From contig NZ_FZON01000034.1 in NCBI RefSeq assembly GCF_900188425.1, positions 1 to 52,610 of the forward strand: 52,610 bases of DNA, given 5' to 3'. Every line of letters starts with the position of its first letter. Position 1 is the first letter of the stretch. Positions 3,024 to 24,221 of this stretch are shown in pieces. The DNA comes from Antarctobacter heliothermus (GTDB lineage Bacteria; Pseudomonadota; Alphaproteobacteria; Rhodobacterales; Rhodobacteraceae). The translations under genes were made by a program, and so were the position numbers. The notes under the pieces are model-generated. The model did not search any database. It saw only the letters and a list, made by a program, of their open reading frames with translations, and was not told the DNA's origin.

Positions 3024-3803
3024 TCAGACCGCGCGATCAACCATCATTTTCTTGATCTCGGCAATCGCCAGCGCCGGGTTCAGCCCCTTTGGGCAGGTCT
3101 TGGCGCAGTTCATGATGGTGTGGCAGCGGTACAGCTTGAACGGATCTTCAAGCTCATCCAGGCGTTCCCCCGTTGCCTCGTCCCGGCTGTCGATGATCCA
3201 GCGGTAGGCGTGCAACAAGGCCGCCGGTCCAAGATAGCGGTCACCATTCCACCAGTACGACGGGCAAGCCGTCGAGCAAGAGGCACACATAACGCACTCA
3301 TACAGTCCGTCCAGCTTTTTGCGGTCCTCGATGGACTGCTTCCACTCCTTGGCGGGGCGGTTGGTCTTGGTCTCCAGCCACGGCATGATGCTGGCGTGTT
3401 GGGCGTAGAAATGCGTCAGGTCCGGGATCAGGTCCTTGACCACAGGCATGTGGGGCAGCGGGTAGATCTTCACGTCGCCCTTGACCTCGTCCAGGCCGTA
3501 GATACAGGCCAGCGTGTTGATCCCGTCGATATTCATCGCGCAAGAACCACAGATCCCTTCACGGCAAGACCGGCGGAACGTCAGCGTCGGGTCGATCTCG
3601 TTCTTGATCTTGATCAGCGCGTCCAGAACCATCGGACCGCAGGTGTCCATGTCGATGAAATAGGTGTCGACCTGCGGGTTCTTTCCGTCATCCGGATTCC
3701 AGCGGTAGATGCTGAACTTGCGCAGGCTCTTGGCTCCCTTCGGCTTGGGCCAGGTCTTGCCGGTCTTGATCTTTGAATTTTTGGGGAGCGTGAATTGTAC
3801 CAT
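3024..3803 (-). CDS. sdhB: Succinate dehydrogenase iron-sulfur subunit
   Basis: 259 residues. It carries electrons from FAD in SdhA to quinone in SdhCD on the inner face of the cytoplasmic membrane. All three clusters have their ligands: [2Fe-2S] in CREGICGSC plus a later Cys (NTLAC), [4Fe-4S] in [12 protein letters not shown], and [3Fe-4S] in CHTIMNC followed by CPKG. I choose ATG 3803 (MVQFTLPKN) with GAGAGA just upstream; the open frame continues upstream without a family-like sequence. It is the last gene of the sdh cluster, separated from sdhA by three unrelated genes. Confidence 0.97.
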
Positions 3804-3813
3804 TTCTCTCTCC

Positions 3814-4131
3814 TTAGCGAAGCAAGGCTGGCAGGCCATTGATGGCCAGGCAGCGGAGGGTTTCGGGTTTGGACGCAATGTCCTTTGCGATCTGAAGCGT
3901 ACTTTCGGTCGGACCCAGCACGGCGTCGGCCGCCAGCGCGCGGATTTGTTGCGCATTGGCGTTGTCGATGAGGCAATCCAGAGCAGGTTGCAGCGGCACG
4001 CCGGGAAACTGTTCGGACACCACGGGGGTCAGGGCACTGCGCGCGGCGTTTCGGGCAATCTGATCCTGCGCCTGCGGAGTGCAGGCAACAAGGATCGCCA
4101 GCGCGGCCGCGACAAGGCTATGGCGGATCAA
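3814..4131 (-). CDS. Small putative lipoprotein inside the sdh operon
   Basis: 105 residues if it starts at TTG 4131, which overlaps the TGA of the preceding gene. The N-terminus [20 protein letters not shown] is a lipoprotein signal with lipobox LVAC. The mature part is helical and Ala/Leu-rich with two more Cys ([15 protein letters not shown]). It ends 10 nt before sdhB. The start codon is uncertain because no strong Shine-Dalgarno precedes it. I do not recognise a named family. Its position between sdhA and sdhB resembles small hypothetical genes I recall in this place in Rhodobacter. Confidence 0.65.
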
Positions 4132-4526: not shown

Positions 4527-5375
4527 TTACTCCACCCTCCCATAGGCAGCAGGCGACCCACCATCCGTCAGGTCCGAATGCATGGTCAGCAAGACATCGA
4601 CGGCCCTGAGCGGCCGTTCCTTGTCAAATCCAATTGCGTTGATCCTGTGGACATACTCCAACAGATCATCAGGGATGCCGACATTGGTGACCGGCGCAGG
4701 CGGCATTGTGGCAATGACCTTGTCTGCAATACCTACGAGCCTGAGGATCGGAGCCTCCAAGAGGTCTTTGGACTGCTTTTCCGTCTTCATGTCCAGAAAA
4801 ACGCCATTGGCGCCCAGGAACTCCCGAGTATCAAAGATCAATTGTGAAAGGGTCTCTGCCGATCCGACACGACGTGCCCTAGTGTCAAAATCCTCACTGA
4901 CACTACGCAATTTGACACCGTAGCGGTAGGCCGAACGCAAATGGGTCTTTGGGTCACGGGTATAGACGACCCATCGTGGATCATACCGCTCAAAGGCTTT
5001 TTGCAGCGCCTTGATTGGCTGTTTCGGACCACGATCAAAGGAGAGCGGGAAAATATTGCGGCTGCCCCAGCCCAACAGATTTTCGTCCGTGATCAGGATA
5101 CTGTCGCGGCCCTGCGTAGTGGGGCGGGCGCGCAATTGGCGCGCCGCCTTGTTCAGTTTGGCCTTGCGCCATGGGCTGGGGCCGTGTCGTGCAATTGTTT
5201 TTGCACGCATCTTGTAACCCCGCGTGACATCCTTTTGGAACAGGGTCGCGCCGGCGCCTTCGATGATGCCACGAGACGCCCCGGCGCATTCCTGAAAGGC
5301 CGTCGAGCCCGTCTTGGGCAGGCCAAGATGCACGATCACACGCTTGGATGCCAAAGAAACAGGCTCTGTCATCAT
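4527..5375 (-). CDS. Sulfotransferase-like protein inserted in the sdh operon
   Basis: 282 residues with a P-loop sulfotransferase fold. GLPKTGSTAFQ (about 18–28) is the 5'-phosphosulfate-binding loop for PAPS, and YTRDPKTHLRSAY (about 137–149) fits the 3'-phosphate-binding Arg…Ser motif. Such enzymes move sulfate from PAPS to a hydroxyl of a sugar, lipid or small molecule; the acceptor cannot be read from sequence. The ATG overlaps the sdhA TGA by one base (TGATG), so translation is probably coupled to sdhA. This gene is not a normal sdh component. There is no signal peptide, so it is probably cytoplasmic. Confidence 0.75.
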   Translation of the reverse strand: MMTEPVSLASKRVIVHLGLPKTGSTAFQECAGASRGIIEGAGATLFQKDVTRGYKMRAKTIARHGPSPWRKAKLNKAARQLRARPTTQGRDSILITDENLLGWGSRNIFPLSFDRGPKQPIKALQKAFERYDPRWVVYTRDPKTHLRSAYRYGVKLRSVSEDFDTRARRVGSAETLSQLIFDTREFLGANGVFLDMKTEKQSKDLLEAPILRLVGIADKVIATMPPAPVTNVGIPDDLLEYVHRINAIGFDKERPLRAVDVLLTMHSDLTDGGSPAAYGRVE

Positions 5376-7177
5376 CAGAAGGTCCGTGCCTTGGGCGCAA
5401 TGCGCTGGAGCGAAATGCCGCCCTGCTCTTCCGTCGAGAGAGGGTCAACGACAACGGGGCGATGGCTGAGATCGACCTTGTTGCCCTCGACGCGGGCGAT
5501 GGTGTGCACGCGCCAGTTTTCATCGTCACGGGTCGAGAAATCCTCATGCGCGTGCGCACCGCGGCTTTCCTTGCGCGCCTCGGCACCGACGATGGTCGCC
5601 AGTGCGTTGGGCATCAGGTTGGTCAACTCAAGGCTTTCCATCAGGTCCGAGTTCCAGACGAGGCTGCGGTCAGTGACCTTGATGTCATCCATCTTGCCCG
5701 CGATGGCGGTCATCGCCTCAACCCCTTCGGCCATGGTTTTGGCGGTCCGGAAGACGGCAGCGTCGCGTTGCATCGTCTTTTGCATCTCTAGCCGCAACTC
5801 GGCTGTGGGCGTGCCACCATTGGCATTGCGAATACCATCAAAGCGATCAAACGCCTTTGTGATCTGGTCCTTGGGCGCGGTCGGCACGGCAGTGTCAGGG
5901 TCAACCACCTTGCCAGCACGGATCGCGGCAGCGCGGCCAAAGACAACGAGGTCGATCAGTGAGTTGGACCCAAGACGGTTGGCACCGTGGACGCTTGCGC
6001 AGCCAGCCTCACCGACAGCCATCAGACCGGGAACAACCGCGTTGGCATCGGCTTCGGTCGGGTTCAGCACTTCACCCCAATAGTTCGTGGGGATGCCGCC
6101 CATGTTGTAGTGAACAGTGGGCAGAACCGGGATCGGTTCCTTGGTCACATCCACACCGGCAAAGATCTTGGCCGACTCCGAAATACCCGGCAGACGTTCA
6201 GCCAGAGCTTCGGCAGGCAGGTGCGACAGGTTCAGGTGGATATGATCTCCTTCGGCGCCAACGCCCCGGCCTTCGCGGATCTCCATGGTCATGGAGCGGC
6301 TGACGTAGTCGCGCGGTGCGAGATCCTTGTAGGTGGGGGCATAGCGTTCCATGAAACGCTCTCCCTCGGAGTTGGTCAGATAGCCGCCCTCGCCTCGTGC
6401 CCCTTCGGTAATCAGGCAGCCGGAGCCGTAGATGCCGGTTGGGTGGAACTGGACAAATTCCATGTCCTGTAGGGGCAGGCCGGCTCGGGCCACCATTCCA
6501 CCGCCATCGCCGGTGCAGGTATGCGCCGAGGTCGCCGAGAAATAGGCGCGGCCATAGCCGCCGGTGGCCAGCACGACCATCTTGGCGTTGAAGACGTGGA
6601 AAGTGCCGTCGTCGAGCTTCCAGCAGAGCACGCCTTTGCAGACGCCGTCCTCCATCAGCAGGTCGATTGCGAAATACTCGATGTAGAATTCAGCGTTGTT
6701 CTTGAGCGACTGACCGTACAGCGTGTGCAGGATGGCGTGGCCTGTGCGGTCGGCCGCGGCGCAGGTGCGCTGCACCGGGGGGCCTTCACCGAATTCGGTG
6801 GTGTGGCCGCCAAAGGGACGCTGATAGATCTTGCCTTCTTCTGTGCGGCTGAACGGGACGCCGTAGTGTTCCAGCTCATAGACCGCCTTGGGCGCCTCAC
6901 GGGCGAGGTATTCCATGGCGTCGGTGTCGCCCAGCCAGTCAGAGCCTTTGACGGTGTCGTACATGTGCCACTGCCAGTGGTCGGGCCCCATGTTCGACAG
7001 CGATGCGGCGATGCCACCCTGAGCGGCCACGGTGTGCGAGCGTGTCGGAAAGACCTTGGTCACGCAGGCGGTGCGCAGCCCCTGTTCGGCCATACCGAGC
7101 GTGGCGCGCAGCCCTGCGCCCCCGGCCCCGACGACCACGACGTCATAATCATGCGTCTCGTATTCGTATGCTGCCAT
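5375..7177 (-). CDS. sdhA: Succinate dehydrogenase flavoprotein subunit
   Basis: 600 residues. It oxidises succinate to fumarate with covalently bound [16 protein letters not shown] (about 14–26) is the dinucleotide-binding motif; the His in [10 protein letters not shown] (about residue 48) carries the flavin. [11 protein letters not shown], the Arg in PRDYVSR and [11 protein letters not shown] are the conserved substrate and flavin contacts. It lies 81 nt after sdhD; that gap contains a hairpin repeat (7209–7229). Its stop overlaps the sulfotransferase start. Confidence 0.98.
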
Positions 7178-7258: not shown

Positions 7259-7630
7259 TCAGAGGGCGATGCGGGCGATGGCGAAAACGCCGACTGCGGC
7301 GGCGCCGTAACTGAGGCAGGTCATGACCAGGATCAGGATTTTCTCCATGACTCCATGCACATAATCTTCGATCAGCACCTGCACTCCCATGTTGAAGTGG
7401 TGAAACCCCACAAGGATGGTCAACGCAGCGACGATCGCCGGGAACGGTCGGCTGTAGTAGGCCAGCACCTCTTCATAGGTGCCGCCCAACGCGCCACCAA
7501 AGGTGAAAATGAAGAAGGGGACAAGGAAGAGCAGCGCAACAGAGCTTTTCTTCATGGCCCAGTGGTGCTCGGTTCCGGATTTGGCTGCGCCCCAGCCTAC
7601 TGCGCGCTTGCGATCGGTCAGAAATGCCAT
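7259..7630 (-). CDS. sdhD: Succinate dehydrogenase membrane anchor subunit D
   Basis: 123 residues with three transmembrane helices (about 29–48, 63–82 and 95–118). The His-containing second helix (VGFHHFNMGVQVLIEDYVH) supplies the haem b/quinone-site residues typical of alphaproteobacterial SdhD. It anchors SdhAB to the membrane together with SdhC. It starts 12 nt after the sdhC stop. Confidence 0.93.
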   Translation of the reverse strand: MAFLTDRKRAVGWGAAKSGTEHHWAMKKSSVALLFLVPFFIFTFGGALGGTYEEVLAYYSRPFPAIVAALTILVGFHHFNMGVQVLIEDYVHGVMEKILILVMTCLSYGAAAVGVFAIARIAL

Positions 7631-7642
7631 GTTCGGGCCTCC

Positions 7643-8026
7643 TCAGACAACGATGATGGTAAAGAGGGTCAGCAAGACGGAGCCGATGATCACACCCCAC
7701 CCCAGCATTTCGGCGGCGTCGATCTCCAGCATCTTTGCCTCATCCCAGATCATGTGACGCACACCGGCCAGCAGGTGATACCAGATCGCCCAGACAGAGC
7801 CGAGCATCACCAGATCGCCGAACCATGAACGCACAACTGCGTCGGCGGTCGCGAAATACTCTGGCGAGGTCGCGGCAGCGAGGAACCACCACACGATCAT
7901 CAACGCGGCCAACAAAAGCGCGTTGCCGGTGATGCGGGTGAGGATGGAGGAAATCGAGGTAAGCTGCGGGCGATAGACCTGCAGATGCGGAGAGAGCGGG
8001 CGATTGCCCCGGTTTACGTCGGCCAT
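7643..8026 (-). CDS. sdhC: Succinate dehydrogenase cytochrome b556 subunit
   Basis: 127 residues from ATG 8026 (MADVNRGNRPLSPHLQVYRP), with AAAGGA upstream. The N-terminus with RPLSPHLQVYR and SILTRITG is the family signature. Three membrane helices follow. The His in WYHLLAGVRHM lies in the haem-binding helix. First gene of the sdh operon; the paired palindromes at 8144–8174 lie 117 nt upstream of its start. Confidence 0.95.
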   Translation of the reverse strand: MADVNRGNRPLSPHLQVYRPQLTSISSILTRITGNALLLAALMIVWWFLAAATSPEYFATADAVVRSWFGDLVMLGSVWAIWYHLLAGVRHMIWDEAKMLEIDAAEMLGWGVIIGSVLLTLFTIIVV

Positions 8027-8143
8027 GGATGATGTCCTTTCGGGTCCGTTGCCTCTTGTTCTACTTCTTTCACGCGGCGTGTCACGGGGGTGGTCCCGAA
8101 AATCCTGCGGTTTTTTGGCGCAACGGGCGGGATTTTCGTGGTT

Positions 8144-8174
8144 TGTGATCACGCTTTTGGAATGTGTGATCACA
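8144..8174. promoter_or_regulatory. Paired palindromic operators upstream of sdhC
   Basis: Two copies of the palindrome TGTGA|TCACA: 8144–8153 (one mismatch, TGTGATCACG) and 8165–8174 (perfect). Their centres are 21 bp apart, two helical turns, so both would face the same side of DNA. The same pair with the same spacing precedes sucC (15640–15670). A dimeric regulator bound in tandem is the natural reading. The regulator is not identified. Confidence 0.7.
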
Positions 8175-8182
8175 GTTTCGCG

Positions 8183-15595: not shown

Positions 15596-15639
15596 TAGCG
15601 CTCACCGCGAATCACTTTGCGCACATGGCCTTGGTAATT

Positions 15640-15670
15640 TGTGATCACAGTTTTCGGGGGTGTGATCACA
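15640..15670. promoter_or_regulatory. Paired palindromic operators upstream of sucC
   Basis: Two perfect copies of TGTGA|TCACA at 15640–15649 and 15661–15670, centres 21 bp apart, flanked outside by T-rich/A-rich bases (TTTGTGATCACA and TGTGATCACAAA). They lie 112 nt before the sucC ATG. Copy number, spacing and distance match the pair before sdhC. Each palindrome has GATC at its centre. Confidence 0.75.
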
Positions 15671-15782
15671 AATGTCGGAAACCTGCCCCCAAAACCGCCC
15701 ATGCGGCAAAATAGCGGTTCAAACCCGCGCCAGACCCTGAATAGGTAGGGCAAATCCGCAGCAAAACGGGGACAGTCGACCC

Positions 15783-16976
15783 ATGAACATCCACGAATAC
15801 CAGGCCAAGGCCCTACTTCGCAGCTACGGGGCGCCTGTCTCGGACGGCCGCGTCGTCCTGAAAGCCGAAGAGGCGAAAACCGCAGCTGGCGCGCTTGACG
15901 GCCCGCTCTGGGTGGTCAAGGCGCAGATCCACGCCGGTGGCCGCGGCAAAGGCTCTTTCAAAGAGGCCGATGCAGGCGAAAAAGGCGGCGTCCGCCTCGC
16001 CAAATCCGTCGAAGAAGCCGAGATGGAGGCCAAGCGCATGCTGGGCCGCACGCTCGTGACCAAACAGACCGGCGATGTCGGCAAGCAGGTCAACCGCATC
16101 TACATCGAAGACGGCTCTGGCATCGAAACCGAACTGTACCTGGCCCTGCTCGTCGATCGTCAGACCAGCCGCGTGTCCTTTGTCGCCTCGACCGAGGGTG
16201 GCATGGACATCGAGGAAGTCGCCGAGTCGACCCCCGAAAAGATCCTGTCGTTCAGCGTTGACCCGGCCACAGGCTATCAGGCGTTCCACGGTCGCCGCAT
16301 CGCCTTCAACCTTGGCCTGACCGGCAAGCAGGTGAAGCAATGCGTCGCCCTGATGGGCACGCTGTACCAGATCTTTGTCGAAAAAGACGTCGAGATGCTG
16401 GAGATCAACCCGCTGATCGTCACCGACTCTGGCGACCTGAAGTGTCTCGACGCCAAAATGAGCTTTGACGGCAACGCGATCTACCGCCACGCCGATATCG
16501 CCGAACTGCGCGACACCTCCGAGGAAGACTCCAAGGAACTGGAGGCGTCCAAGTACGACCTGAACTACATCGCGCTCGACGGTGAGATCGGCTGCATGGT
16601 GAACGGCGCGGGCCTTGCCATGGCGACGATGGACATCATCAAGCTGTACGGCGCAGAGCCTGCCAACTTCCTTGACGTGGGCGGCGGCGCGACCAAGGAA
16701 AAGGTCACAGAGGCGTTCAAGATCATCACCTCTGACCCGCAAGTTAAAGGCATTCTGGTGAACATCTTCGGCGGCATCATGCGCTGCGACGTCATCGCCG
16801 AGGGCGTGATCGCCGCGGTCAAGGAGGTCGGCCTGCAGGTTCCGCTGGTTGTGCGTCTGGAAGGCACCAATGTCGAAAAAGGCAAAGAGATCATCTCGAC
16901 CTCTGGCCTCAACGTCATTGCCGCTGACAATCTGTCAGACGGCGCCGAGAAGATCGTGAAAGCGGTCAAGGGGTAA
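15783..16976 (+). CDS. sucC: Succinyl-CoA synthetase β subunit
   Basis: 397 residues. With SucD it makes succinate and ATP or GTP from succinyl-CoA. [19 protein letters not shown] starts the ATP-grasp domain; HAGGRGKG binds nucleotide, and EINPLIV and [11 protein letters not shown] with NFLDVGGGA form the CoA-ligase part. First gene of the suc operon, preceded by GGGGA. Confidence 0.97.
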
Positions 16977-17033: not shown

Positions 17034-17918
17034 ATGCCAGACGCAATTCTTCATATCGGCTTCAACAAATGCGGCTCGACCGCGCTTCAACAATGGTTGA
17101 GCGCTCAAGAGGACGCGTTGCTGGCGCAAGGCATCTGGTATCGCAGGATGGATCCGCGGACGGACGTGGTCTGCACCAACCCGCACCTCCAAGTGCTGGC
17201 CTTTACCCTTGCGGATCAGCCGGTGCCCAGCCGTCCAATGAATGCTGTGCTGGGTATTCCAGAGGGGGACCGGGTCGCTCAAGATGCGGTTGCACATGCG
17301 TTTCGTGAACAATTCGAGGCGCAGGTAGCCAATGGCGGGTTCAAAACATGGGTCGGATCCAGCGAGGCACTGGTGTCACGCTTCATGACCCCCGAAGCGA
17401 TATCAGCACTGGCCGATTGGTTGTCGGGCCTCTTTGGGAACGTACGCTACGTCGCGTATGTTCGCCGCCCGGAAACTTGGCTGGTCAGCTTGTTTGGTCA
17501 CCAACTGCGCAAGACTGCCAGTCCCGAAGATCTGACTGCCTTTGTTGATCGCTTTGGCCCGGCACCTTTTGCGCGTTTGCTGGACATGTGGCGCACTGCC
17601 GTGGGTCAAGAGGCACTGGACGTGCGCCTCTTTGAAGAAAGCTGGCTCGGCGGTGGCGGGCTTGTCAGAGATTTCCAGACGGTCCTCGACCTTCCTGCCG
17701 GAACTCTGCCTACGCGCTCGAAACGTGTGAATACCACGTTCCGCAACCGCATGAATCCATGGTCACGCGCCCCGAAACGCCCCGTTTTGTCAGCGCAGAC
17801 CCGCGACATGATCGCCCAGAGCAACGCAGAGGGTATGGGCTGGATCGAAAGCACCTTTTTCGCCGACCGCCAGACGGAATTCCGGAGCTGGGCGGCGGGA
17901 TCGGAGACGCGGTGCTGA
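17034..17918 (+). CDS. Sulfotransferase-like protein inserted between sucC and sucD
   Basis: 294 residues. [11 protein letters not shown] (about 9–19) is a PAPS 5'-phosphosulfate loop and [13 protein letters not shown] (about 142–154) the 3'-phosphate motif. The rest is helical, as in bacterial sulfotransferases acting on polysaccharides or lipids. The acceptor is unknown. It differs strongly from the sulfotransferase in the sdh operon (only the motifs align by eye), so it is not a recent duplicate. SucC and SucD are normally adjacent; this gene splits them. Confidence 0.78.
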
Positions 17919-18018: not shown

Positions 18019-18900
18019 ATGGCCGTCCTCGTAGACGAAAATACCAAAGTCATCTGTCAGGGCCTCACCGGCTCGCAGGGCACTTTTCACACCGAACAAG
18101 CAATTGCCTACGGCACCAAGATGGTCGGGGGCGTGACCCCCGGCAAAGGTGGGCAAACCCATCTGGACCTGCCAGTCTTCAACTCAGTGCATGAGGCCAA
18201 GGCCGTGACCGAGGCGAACGCATCGGTGATCTATGTGCCGCCGCCCTTCGCAGGCGATTCAATCCTAGAGGCAATCGACGCCGAGATGGAGTTGATCATC
18301 TGCATCACCGAGGGCATCCCGGTGCTGGACATGATGAAGGTCAAGCGCGCGCTGGAAGGCAGCAAGAGCCGTCTGATCGGCCCGAACTGCCCCGGCGTCA
18401 TCACGCCTGACGCCTGCAAGATCGGCATCATGCCCGGTCACATCCACAAGCGTGGCAGCGTTGGCGTGGTGTCGCGTTCGGGCACGCTCACCTATGAGGC
18501 GGTCAAGCAGACGGCTGACATCGGTCTGGGCCAGTCGACGGCCGTTGGCATCGGTGGCGACCCGATCAAAGGGACCGAGCATATCGACGTGCTGGAGATG
18601 TTCCTGGCCGACGATGAGACTCAGTCGATCATCATGATCGGTGAGATCGGTGGCTCTGCCGAGGAAGAAGCGGCGCAGTTCCTGGCCGATGAGCGCAAGA
18701 AGGGCCGTTGGAAGCCGACGGCTGGCTTTATCGCGGGCCGCACCGCCCCTCCGGGACGTCGCATGGGCCACGCGGGCGCGATTGTTGCCGGCGGCAAAGG
18801 CGATGCAGAGAGCAAGATCGAAGCCATGAAAGAGGCAGGTATCGTGGTCGCTGACAGCCCTGCAACGCTGGGTGAGGCCGTTCTGAAGGCCATCGGCTAA
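18019..18900 (+). CDS. sucD: Succinyl-CoA synthetase α subunit
   Basis: 293 residues. [20 protein letters not shown] opens the CoA-binding Rossmann domain ([10 protein letters not shown]). [10 protein letters not shown] and the phospho-His in [10 protein letters not shown] are the catalytic marks. A 100-nt gap before it follows the sulfotransferase gene; GACAGGA lies upstream of the ATG. Confidence 0.97.
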
Positions 18901-19708: not shown

Positions 19709-22681
19709 ATGAACGACCAAAGCCCCAACGACCTCTTCCACGCCTCCAGTTTCATGCAGGGGCACAACGCGGAATACCTCGAACAGATGTACGCCCGCTA
19801 TGCCGCCGATCCGAACGCGGTCGATGACGCATGGGCGGCGTTCTTCAGCCAGCTTGGCGATGCCGAGATGGACGTGCAGAAAGAGGCGCAAGGCCCCTCT
19901 TGGGCGCGCAAGGACTGGCCGCCGCAGCCCGACGACGATCTGACCGGCGCGCTGACCGGCGAATGGCCGATGCCCGCCGTTCCGGCAGAGGCCAAAGGGG
20001 CCGCCAAGAAGATCAAGGACAAGGCCGAGGCCAAGGGCGTCACCGTCAGCGACGAGGCGATCCAGCGCGCCGTTCTGGACAGCATCCGCGCGTTGATGAT
20101 CATCCGCGCCTTTCGCATCCGGGGCCATCTGGCCGCCGATCTGGACCCGCTGGGCCTGCGCGATACGTCGAACCACCCGGAACTGGACCCGAAAAGCTAT
20201 GGCTTTACCGAAGGGGACATGGACCGGCCGATCTTTATCGACAACGTGCTGGGCCTGCAGATCGCCTCGCTGCGCGAGATCCTGTCGATCGTGAAACGCA
20301 CCTACTGCGGCACCTTTGCGTTGCAGTACATGCATATTTCCGACCCCGAGCAGGCCAGCTGGCTGAAAGAGCGGATCGAGGGCTTTGGCAAAGAGGTCAA
20401 GTTCACCCGCGAAGGCCGCAAGGCGATCCTGAACAAGATGGTCGAGGCCGAGGGTTTCGAGAAGTTCCTGCATGTGAAATACATGGGCACCAAGCGGTTC
20501 GGCCTTGATGGCGGCGAAAGCCTGATCCCCGCGATGGAACAGATCATCAAGCGCGGCGGCAATCTGGGCATCAAGGAAATCATCATCGGGATGCCGCACC
20601 GCGGTCGTCTGTCGGTGCTGGCGAACGTGATGGGCAAACCCTACAAGGCGATCTTCAACGAATTTCAGGGCGGCAGCTTCAAACCTGAGGATGTCGATGG
20701 CTCTGGTGATGTGAAATACCACCTCGGCGCATCGTCCGACCGTGAGTTTGACGGCAACAGCGTCCACCTCTCGCTGACCGCCAACCCCAGCCACCTGGAG
20801 GCGGTGAACCCGGTGGTTCTGGGCAAGGTCCGCGCCAAGCAGGACCAGTTCAATGATGCCAGCCGCACGCAGGTCATGCCGATCCTGCTGCACGGCGACG
20901 CGGCCTTTGCCGGTCAGGGTGTCGTGGCCGAATGTTTCGCCCTGTCGGGTCTGCGCGGCCACCGCACCGGCGGCACCATGCACATCGTGGTGAACAACCA
21001 GATTGGGTTCACCACCGCGCCGCACTTTTCGCGCTCGTCACCCTATCCCACCGACAACGCGCTGGTGGTTGAGGCACCGATTTTCCACGTCAACGGAGAC
21101 GACCCCGAGGCCGTGGTGCACGCCGCCAAGGTCGCGACCGAGTTCCGCCAGAAGTTCGGCAAGGACGTGGTGCTGGATATCTTCTGCTACCGCCGGTTTG
21201 GTCACAACGAGGGCGATGAGCCCATGTTCACCAACCCGATCATGTACAACCAGATCAAGAAGCATAAGACCACGCTGACCCTGTACACCGAACGTCTGGT
21301 CAAGGACGGGCTGATCCCCGAAGGCGAGATCGAGGACATGAAGGCCGCGTTTCAGGCGCAGCTGAATGAGGAATTCGAGGCTGGCAAGGTCTACCGCCCC
21401 AACAAGGCGGACTGGCTGGATGGCCGCTGGTCGCATCTCGACAAGCAGAAAGAGGGCAAATACCAGCGCGGCAAGACCTCATTATCCAAAGAGGCCATGC
21501 AGGACATCGGCAATGCGCTGACGCGGGTGCCGGACGGCTTTCCGATCCACCGCACGGTGGGCCGCCTGATCGAAACACGGGCCAAGATGTTCGAGACCGG
21601 CGAAGGGTTCGACTGGGCCACGGCGGAATCGCTGGCCTTTGGGTCGCTGCAACTCGAAGGGTATCCGGTGCGTCTGTCCGGGCAGGACAGCACGCGCGGT
21701 ACGTTCTCGCAGCGGCATTCGGCCTTTATCAACCAAGAGACGGAAGAGCGCTATTATCCGCTCAACAACATCCGTGAGGGCCAGGCCCGCTATGAGGTGA
21801 TCGACTCTGCGCTGTCGGAATACGCTGTGCTGGGCTTTGAATACGGCTATTCGCTGGCGGAACCCAACGCGCTGACCCTGTGGGAGGCGCAGTTTGGTGA
21901 CTTTGCCAACGGCGCGCAGATCATGTTCGACCAGTTCATCTCTTCGGGTGAATCGAAATGGCTGCGGATGTCGGGCCTTGTCTGCCTGTTGCCGCACGGG
22001 TTCGAGGGCCAGGGGCCGGAACACTCCTCCGCGCGTCTGGAGCGGTTCCTGCAAGCCTGCGGTCAGGACAACTGGATCGTGGCGAACTGTTCGACGCCCG
22101 CCAACTATTTCCACATCATGCGCCGCCAGCTGCACCGGACCTTCCGCAAGCCGCTGATCCTGATGACGCCCAAGTCGCTGCTCAGGCACAAACTGTGCGT
22201 CTCGACCGCCAAGGATTTCACCGGCGGGTCGTCATTCCACCGCGTCCTTTGGGACAGCGCGGAATCCGGCGAGTCCGACACCAAGCTGGTGGCCGACGAC
22301 AAGATCAAGCGGGTGGTGATGTGTTCGGGCAAAGTCTACTACGACCTGCTCGAGGAACGCGACGCGCGCGGCATCACCGATGTCTACCTGCTGCGGGTCG
22401 AACAGTTCTACCCCTTCCCGGCGATCAGTCTGGTCAAGGAGCTGGAACGCTTCAAGCAGGCCGAGATGCTGTGGTGTCAGGAAGAGCCCAAGAACCAGGG
22501 TGCCTGGAGCTTTATCGAGCCCAATATCGAATGGGTGCTTGGCCGTATCAAGGCCGACCACCCGCGCCCGCGTTACGTGGGCCGCGCCACATCGGCCAGC
22601 CCTGCGACGGGTCTGGCCAGCATGCACAAAGCACAGCAAGAGGCGCTCGTGAACGAAGCGCTGACGATGGAAGGAAACTGA
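19709..22681 (+). CDS. sucA: 2-oxoglutarate dehydrogenase E1
   Basis: 990 residues. ThDP-dependent decarboxylation of 2-oxoglutarate. The N-terminal helix ([20 protein letters not shown]) is the E2-docking segment. [20 protein letters not shown] and the ThDP motif region [18 protein letters not shown] are typical. [20 protein letters not shown] marks the pyrimidine domain. Length and all blocks match normal OdhA. A GAAAGG Shine-Dalgarno precedes the ATG. Confidence 0.98.
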
Positions 22682-22685
22682 GATC

Positions 22686-24221
22686 ATGACCGAAGTGCGT
22701 GTTCCCACGCTTGGGGAATCGGTGACCGAAGCAACGGTCGCAACCTGGTTCAAAAAGCCCGGCGATGCCGTGGCGGTGGACGAAATGCTCTGCGAACTGG
22801 AGACTGACAAGGTCACGGTCGAGGTGCCCTCGCCCATTGCCGGCACCCTGTCGGACATTGTGGCCGCAGAGGGAGAGACGGTTGGCGTGGACGCCTTGCT
22901 TGCCAATATCTCCGAGGGGGACAGCGGATCGGATGCCGCGCCCAAACCCAAGGCAAAAGACGCCTCTGCCGACGCTCCCAAGGCGGATGCGGACGCAGGA
23001 GGGGCCAGCGTTGACGTCATGGTGCCCACGCTGGGCGAATCCGTGACAGAGGCGACCGTTTCCACATGGTTCAAGAAGGTCGGCGATCAGGTCGCGCAGG
23101 ACGAAATGCTGTGTGAGCTGGAAACCGACAAGGTGTCTGTCGAGGTGCCCGCCCCAGCCGCAGGCACGTTGACAGAGATCATCGCCAACGAAGGCGACAC
23201 CGTGCAGGCCGACGCCAAGCTGGCGGTTCTGTCCTCGGGCGGCGGTGCCGCGCAGGCAGCCAAATCAGAGGCTGCGGGCGGCACTCAGTACCATACCCCG
23301 GCCGCGGGCAATGGCGGTCCGGGCAAGGACATCAAGGACGGTCCCGCCGCTGAAAAAGCGATGGCAAAGGCCGGGGTCCAGCGCGACGCCGTGACCGGAA
23401 CCGGCCGCGATGGCCGCGCGACAAAATCCGATGTCGCCGCCGCCGTGGCCGCCGCCAGCGCCGCGCCCAAATCTGCGGCCCCGGCCTCTGCACCGCGCGC
23501 GCCGGTCCCCGCCGACGATGCCGCGCGTGAGGAACGGGTCAAGATGACCCGCCTGCGCCAGACCATCGCCCGCCGTCTCAAGGACGCGCAGAATGCCGCC
23601 GCGATCCTGACCACCTACAATGAGGTGGACATGACGGAAACGATGGCGCTGCGGAAGGAATACAAGGATCTGTTCGAGAAGAAGCACGGCGCGCGCCTTG
23701 GCTTTATGTCCTTCTTCACCAAGGCCTGCTGCCATGCGCTGAAAGAAGTGCCGGAAGTGAACGCCGAGATCGACGGCACTGACATTGTCTACAAGAACTT
23801 TGTCCACATGGGCATCGCGGCGGGCACGCCGCAGGGTCTGGTGGTTCCGGTTATCCGCGACGCCGACAAGATGTCCTTTGCCGAGATCGAAAAGGCGATT
23901 GCCGAAAAGGGCAAGCGCGCCCGCGACGGCAAACTGTCGATGGCGGAAATGCAGGGCGGCACCTTTACCATCTCGAACGGTGGTGTTTACGGCTCGCTCA
24001 TGTCCTCGCCGATCCTCAACCCGCCGCAGTCCGGTATTCTTGGCATGCACAAGATCCAGGACCGCCCTATGGTCATCAACGGTGAGATCAAGATCCGCCC
24101 GATGATGTATCTGGCCCTGTCCTACGATCACCGCATCGTCGACGGCAAAGGCGCTGTGACCTTCCTTGTGCGGGTCAAAGAGGCGCTGGAAGATCCACGC
24201 CGGTTGCTGATGGATCTGTGA
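22686..24221 (+). CDS. sucB: 2-oxoglutarate dehydrogenase E2 (dihydrolipoyl succinyltransferase)
   Basis: 511 residues with two lipoyl domains in tandem (about 2–77 and 109–184); each has ELETDKV with lipoyl Lys at about 42 and 149. Then a Pro/Ala linker, an E1/E3-binding domain ([20 protein letters not shown]) and the catalytic core ending [12 protein letters not shown] with the active His. Many SucB proteins have a single lipoyl domain, so the duplication is notable but occurs in relatives. Starts 4 nt after sucA. Confidence 0.97.

Follow-up and report, generated by a model that had tools for sequence, protein, structure and literature searches.

In Antarctobacter heliothermus, two short palindromes lie close together upstream of sdhC, and a second pair lies upstream of sucC. 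This raises the question of whether the pairs are operators for one regulator shared by oxidative TCA operons and, if so, which protein binds them. A first-pass annotation, made from the letters of this DNA, had proposed a shared and possibly undescribed regulator, on the view that sites of the AkgR type differ. We consider it highly probable that the pairs are instead double operators for AkgR, encoded in this genome by the gene that we call L020, through which AkgR would activate sdhCDAB and sucCD-sucAB; a single palindrome at the regulator's own gene would serve autorepression. Throughout, the window means the whole stretch of DNA that was analyzed, 52,610 nt, which is contig C51 of a 5.17-Mb genome assembled in 159 contigs.

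Two palindrome pairs in the window

The letters upstream of sdhC agree with the original description: one copy of TGTGATCACG and one of TGTGATCACA, 21 bp apart from center to center, stand 117 nt from the sdhC ATG (8024-8026, minus strand) (Table 1). The claim that the same architecture precedes sucC also held, as both copies there are perfect, their centers are again 21 bp apart, and the pair ends 112 nt before the sucC ATG at 15783. The core GTGATCAC is present ahead of both target operons, sdh and suc, in the window sequence that we read. Gene order suggests that sucAB and sucCD form one transcript here. Two open frames, one between sdhA and sdhB (4527-5375, minus strand) and one between sucC and sucD (17034-17918, plus strand), have similar beginnings, and their openings, LPKTGST and FNKCGST, respectively, recall sulfotransferases; a Pfam search at E 0.001 gave no match for either frame.

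Table 1. Features of the sdh and suc regions, in window coordinates
Feature	Position	Strand	Remarks
Palindrome TGTGATCACG, sdhC-proximal copy of sdh pair, predicted AkgR operator	8144..8153	.	letters and coordinates checked
Palindrome TGTGATCACA, distal copy of sdh pair, predicted AkgR operator	8165..8174	.	letters and coordinates checked
Palindrome TGTGATCACA, distal copy of suc pair, predicted AkgR operator	15640..15649	.	letters and coordinates checked
Palindrome TGTGATCACA, sucC-proximal copy of suc pair, predicted AkgR operator	15661..15670	.	letters and coordinates checked
GTGACA, putative -35 box of sdhC promoter, 58 nt past the pair	8080..8085	-	GTGAC conserved; -35 role predicted
sdhC	7643..8026	-	Pfam Sdh_cyt
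sdhD	7259..7630	-	Pfam Sdh_cyt
sdhA	5375..7177	-	Pfam FAD_binding_2 and Succ_DH_flav_C
sdhB	3024..3956	-	Pfam Fer2_3 and Fer4 domains; open frame probably starts 5' of true start
sucC	15783..16976	+	Pfam ATP-grasp_2 and Ligase_CoA
sucD	18019..18900	+	Pfam CoA_binding and Ligase_CoA
sucA	19709..22681	+	Pfam E1_dh and OxoGdeHyase_C
sucB	22686..24221	+	Pfam 2-oxoacid_dh and Biotin_lipoyl

Single copies of the decamer are only mildly enriched in the window, where 4 occur with one mismatch or fewer against a mean of 1.32 in shuffled sequence, and 7 of 100 shuffles reach 4. The pair is far above chance expectation: with up to three mismatches it occurs at two places in the whole genome, before sdhC and before sucC, and nowhere else, and the reversed control gives 0. 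We found the exact single decamer at 10 places (reversed control, 0), 3 of them inside the two pairs and 7 elsewhere; judging from the open frames that we read, six of the unpaired copies apparently lie in coding sequence and one (L032) is intergenic. Near-identical coding stretches at the end of contig C117 (L036) and the start of contig C126 (L037) each hold a coding copy of the decamer, and they may represent a duplicated gene that broke the assembly.

Conservation across Rhodobacteraceae

We looked for the pair in a family sample of 198 genomes, each with a separate genus code. With up to two mismatches it is present in 163 of the 198, while the reversed control is found in none of them, and two copies of the core GTGATCAC with a spacer of 6-30 occur in 175 of the 198 (control, 0). 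Among the 75 core-pair places listed, the spacing is 21 in 63, 20 in 6, and some other value in 6. The palindromes could in principle be chance repeats, since coding sequence too holds single decamers, but these family counts against the reversed pattern, together with the fixed place of the pairs ahead of the same genes, refute that reading, and we give it practically no weight.

A family-wide scan for the paired motif and its downstream genes, as the first-pass annotation had suggested, gave mostly sucC and sdhC at the loci that we read. In all 20 regions that we picked for having both pairs on one contig (19 of 19.9 kb and one of 13.1 kb), one pair stands ahead of sucC and one ahead of sdhC. 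Together, the window and loci L039-L087 hold 73 sites with up to three mismatches, and 72 of them lie 95-190 nt before sucC (45 sites) or sdhC (27 sites); some genomes enter this tally twice, and one promoter contributes a third, overlapping palindrome. The idea that oxidative TCA operons share an element linked to their promoters is thus upheld: the pair is retained in relatives, and it is neither at chance frequency nor detached from promoters. The 73rd site (L055, in genome G177) lies 134 nt before sucA. In three genomes (G001, G063, and G093) sdh and suc are distant from each other or on separate contigs, and both still carry the pair. Genome G042 has an additional pair (L242:1993-2023), 123 nt before the class II fumarase gene fumC (from 2147), which indicates that the regulon can extend to fumC. 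A further paired match, L243 in genome G115, sits in an apparent gene and was taken as chance.

Beyond the family, the pair was found in 1 of 380 genomes of the class, and the reversed control was likewise found in 1 of 380. This sole extra-family pair (L236:991-1021, in genome G539 from another family of the class) precedes a GntR/FCD gene; it may be a chance occurrence, because the reversed control also gives one genome.

The candidate regulator and its own gene

AkgR, which we take to be RSP_0981 of R. sphaeroides, reportedly activates TCA genes directly, a result credited to Imam in 2015. The core GTGATCAC was identified among AkgR binding sites, according to the part of the source available to us (PMC6365646), so that the core reported for the R. 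sphaeroides regulon is the same as here, contrary to the earlier view that AkgR-type sites differ. The targets are also the same as here, sucCD, sdh, and sucAB: as far as the available part of the second source goes, RSP_0981 is described as a GntR regulator whose predicted targets are sucCD, sdh, and the 2-oxoglutarate (alpha-ketoglutarate) dehydrogenase genes (PMC4344238).

Our own genome yielded 26 GntR-type hits, 24 of which were taken as proteins, with L025 and L026 left out of the set. One of the 24, L020 (contig C106, about 74,340-75,020), carries both PF00392 (GntR) and PF07729 (FCD) and is 75-78% identical to the GntR gene that lies beside sdh in genome G051. This genome is very probably R. 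sphaeroides, because over 111 residues the PDB 4l9y chain, which we take to be R. sphaeroides malyl-CoA lyase, matches it at 100% identity (the runner-up of 394 genomes reaches 95%), and because its gene order agrees with the published tags, its GntR gene lying a few genes past sdhA, as RSP_0981 should. It is from this gene order that we equate the GntR gene of G051 with RSP_0981. Like A. heliothermus, G051 has the pair before both sucC and sdhC. Sequence comparison thus points to L020 as the AkgR orthologue of A. heliothermus, a GntR/FCD protein. The two genomes differ in that the regulator gene here lies on a different contig from sdh and suc; in some other genomes (e.g., G154, G197, G010, and G013) the suc genes have a relative of L020 no more than about 20 kb away. 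Of 371 genomes outside the family, 5 have relatives of L020 at E values up to 1e-35, with 36-40% identity, so that AkgR proper, like the pair, is largely a feature of the family.

If the protein encoded by L020 binds the pairs, the two should occur in the same genomes. We counted a genome as L020 positive if its best match was below 1e-50, a cut-off picked after we had seen the gap between the weakest positive (1.1e-58) and the strongest negative (4.8e-47). The core pair is present in 172 of the 177 genomes with L020 versus 3 of the 21 without it, and the 21-bp pair with up to two mismatches is present in 160 of 177 versus 3 of 21 (p = 3e-13). Seventeen L020-positive genomes lack the latter, and the 11 of these that we read before sucC have either a 20-bp-spaced pair (10 genomes) or a 21-bp pair with three mismatches (1 genome). 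The exceptions to the association are G019, G096, and G114, where the pair is present but a strong L020 match is not, and five genomes with L020 in which the core pair was not found. In 13 of 13 L020-negative genomes the core was not found in the 300 nt before sucC, nor was it found before sdhC in the three that were readable there; G109, which is among these genomes, carries a decamer with one mismatch. Since a tree of SucC alone was too weakly supported, we placed both traits on a six-protein tree of 41 genomes, where each changes 6 times, with 4 of the changes forced by starred branches. All four independent comparisons on this tree agree (p = 0.125); with just four of them, relatedness may contribute to the association.

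The gene for the regulator itself carries the palindrome. A single copy of the core (L020:1715-1722, contig C106) sits at the start of L020, directly after a TTGAC box, and L020 is the only one of the 24 own GntR genes with a core between -200 and +90 relative to the open-frame start; it was not found in that interval in the other 23. This own-gene site ties the palindrome to the L020 protein independently of the literature. Two sets of close relatives were read, and 78 of 80 loci have it in the first and 29 of 30 in the second. Of 20 more distant genomes, taken from further down the L020 match list, 9 have it, as do 4 of 8 loci chosen otherwise. The reversed control gave 0 each time, and the site lies just ahead of the conserved part of the protein. 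Among the distinct upstream sequences of the close-relative sets, 96 of 102 have it; in 81 of these 96 a TTGACN box precedes its start by 11 nt, and 81 of 96 have an in-frame start codon 7-9 nt beyond it. From these distances, the palindrome would cover the expected -10 region. In A. heliothermus it falls inside the annotated open frame of L020, ahead of an in-frame ATG, which is probably the true start, the annotated frame beginning too early. The palindrome before the regulator's own start is a second difference from G051, where it is absent, and the sequences suggest that autoregulation of akgR is common, not universal.

Taken together, the published motif and targets, the orthologue, the co-occurrence, and the own-gene site indicate an AkgR regulon, known in kind, and the regulator once presumed undescribed is very probably AkgR. 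The alternative that a different, undescribed regulator binds the pairs can appeal to the three genomes in which the pair occurs but L020 has no strong match and to the fact that AkgR binding in A. heliothermus is a prediction from sequence. We nevertheless consider it unlikely, given that the motif and the same target operons are already reported for AkgR, that the pair tracks the L020 protein across genomes, and that the palindrome precedes L020 and none of the other own GntR genes tested. Less probable still, and to our minds very improbable, is that the operators are those of the GntR paralogue L024, alone or together with L020. This paralogue shares 38% identity with L020 and shows a weak association with the pair (84 of 94 genomes versus 79 of 104, p = 0.015), but in the same table the association is far stronger for L020, 79 genomes have the pair without a strong match to L024, and the core site was not found near the L024 gene start.

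A CRP site is TGTGA-N6-TCACA, with a 6-bp spacer. CRP-like or CceR-type sites are almost certainly not what we see here: the TGTGA/TCACA halves resemble those of CRP, but they abut without the spacer, as the first-pass annotation had observed in setting CRP aside, and R. sphaeroides is not predicted to have CRP-analogous proteins (available part of PMC4344238). The same source predicts that CceR (RSP_1663) acts on central carbon genes of R. sphaeroides, sdh among them, and gives its motif as GTT N6-8 AAC, which has no match in either intergenic region (8027-8182 and 15596-15782). CceR is a LacI-family protein. A more distant likeness is PS417_07240 of Pseudomonas simiae, a GntR-like regulator of deoxyribonate genes that is 32% identical to AkgR and has the conserved palindrome GTGATCAC, although its targets are different and its site is near the start codon (-47 to -40), with no upstream pair described in the part of the source available (PMC6365646).

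Predicted mode of action of AkgR

Under the AkgR reading, one AkgR dimer would bind each palindrome, and because the centers are two helical turns apart (21 bp, or 20 in some genomes), two dimers would be neighbors on the same DNA face. The fixed spacing suggests cooperative binding. Promoters were compared with repeated sequences and two overlapping third palindromes set aside. Of 23 distinct regions upstream of sdhC, 16 have GTGAC 56-59 nt past the pair, versus a maximum of 2 in 200 shuffles. If the GTGACA at 8085-8080 is the -35 box, the sdh palindromes would lie near -97 and -118. At that distance, sites paired on the same face of the DNA would suit an activator that reaches RNA polymerase from upstream. 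Of the 32 upstream regions of sucC, 12 have a CGTTT starting at 42-45 and 9 have a TATA at 68-71, where shuffled sequences gave at most 3 and 7, respectively; for the sdhC upstream regions, the -10 test did no better than shuffles. Dimers bound about 100 nt upstream of the transcription start would activate sdhCDAB and sucCD-sucAB, and a dimer on the single copy over the expected -10 region of akgR would let AkgR repress itself, here and in many relatives.

The 20/21-bp spacing rule, its breadth, and the own-gene site are possibly novel. A literature search on the full decamer returned no related paper by title, and among the papers within the scope of our search, which lay outside the primary AkgR paper, we found nothing on pairing or autoregulation.

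By tying the motif to AkgR, our results remove a supposed orphan regulator and offer a family-wide view of the AkgR regulon, which consists mostly of two operons, sdh and suc, with sucA or fumC added in single genomes. In many Rhodobacteraceae, AkgR may have two modes. From about 100 nt upstream, two dimers stacked at the fixed 20/21-bp spacing would switch on sdh and suc, joined in single genomes by sucA or fumC; a single dimer over the -10 region would shut down akgR, a feedback nearly universal in the roseobacter relatives and lost in R. sphaeroides and in about half of the more distant genera. We regard this fuller scheme as evenly poised between right and wrong. Loss of the feedback in R. 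sphaeroides would mean that it escaped notice in the species where AkgR was studied, and the palindrome at the regulator's own gene provides a candidate autoregulatory site that is easily testable in a roseobacter.
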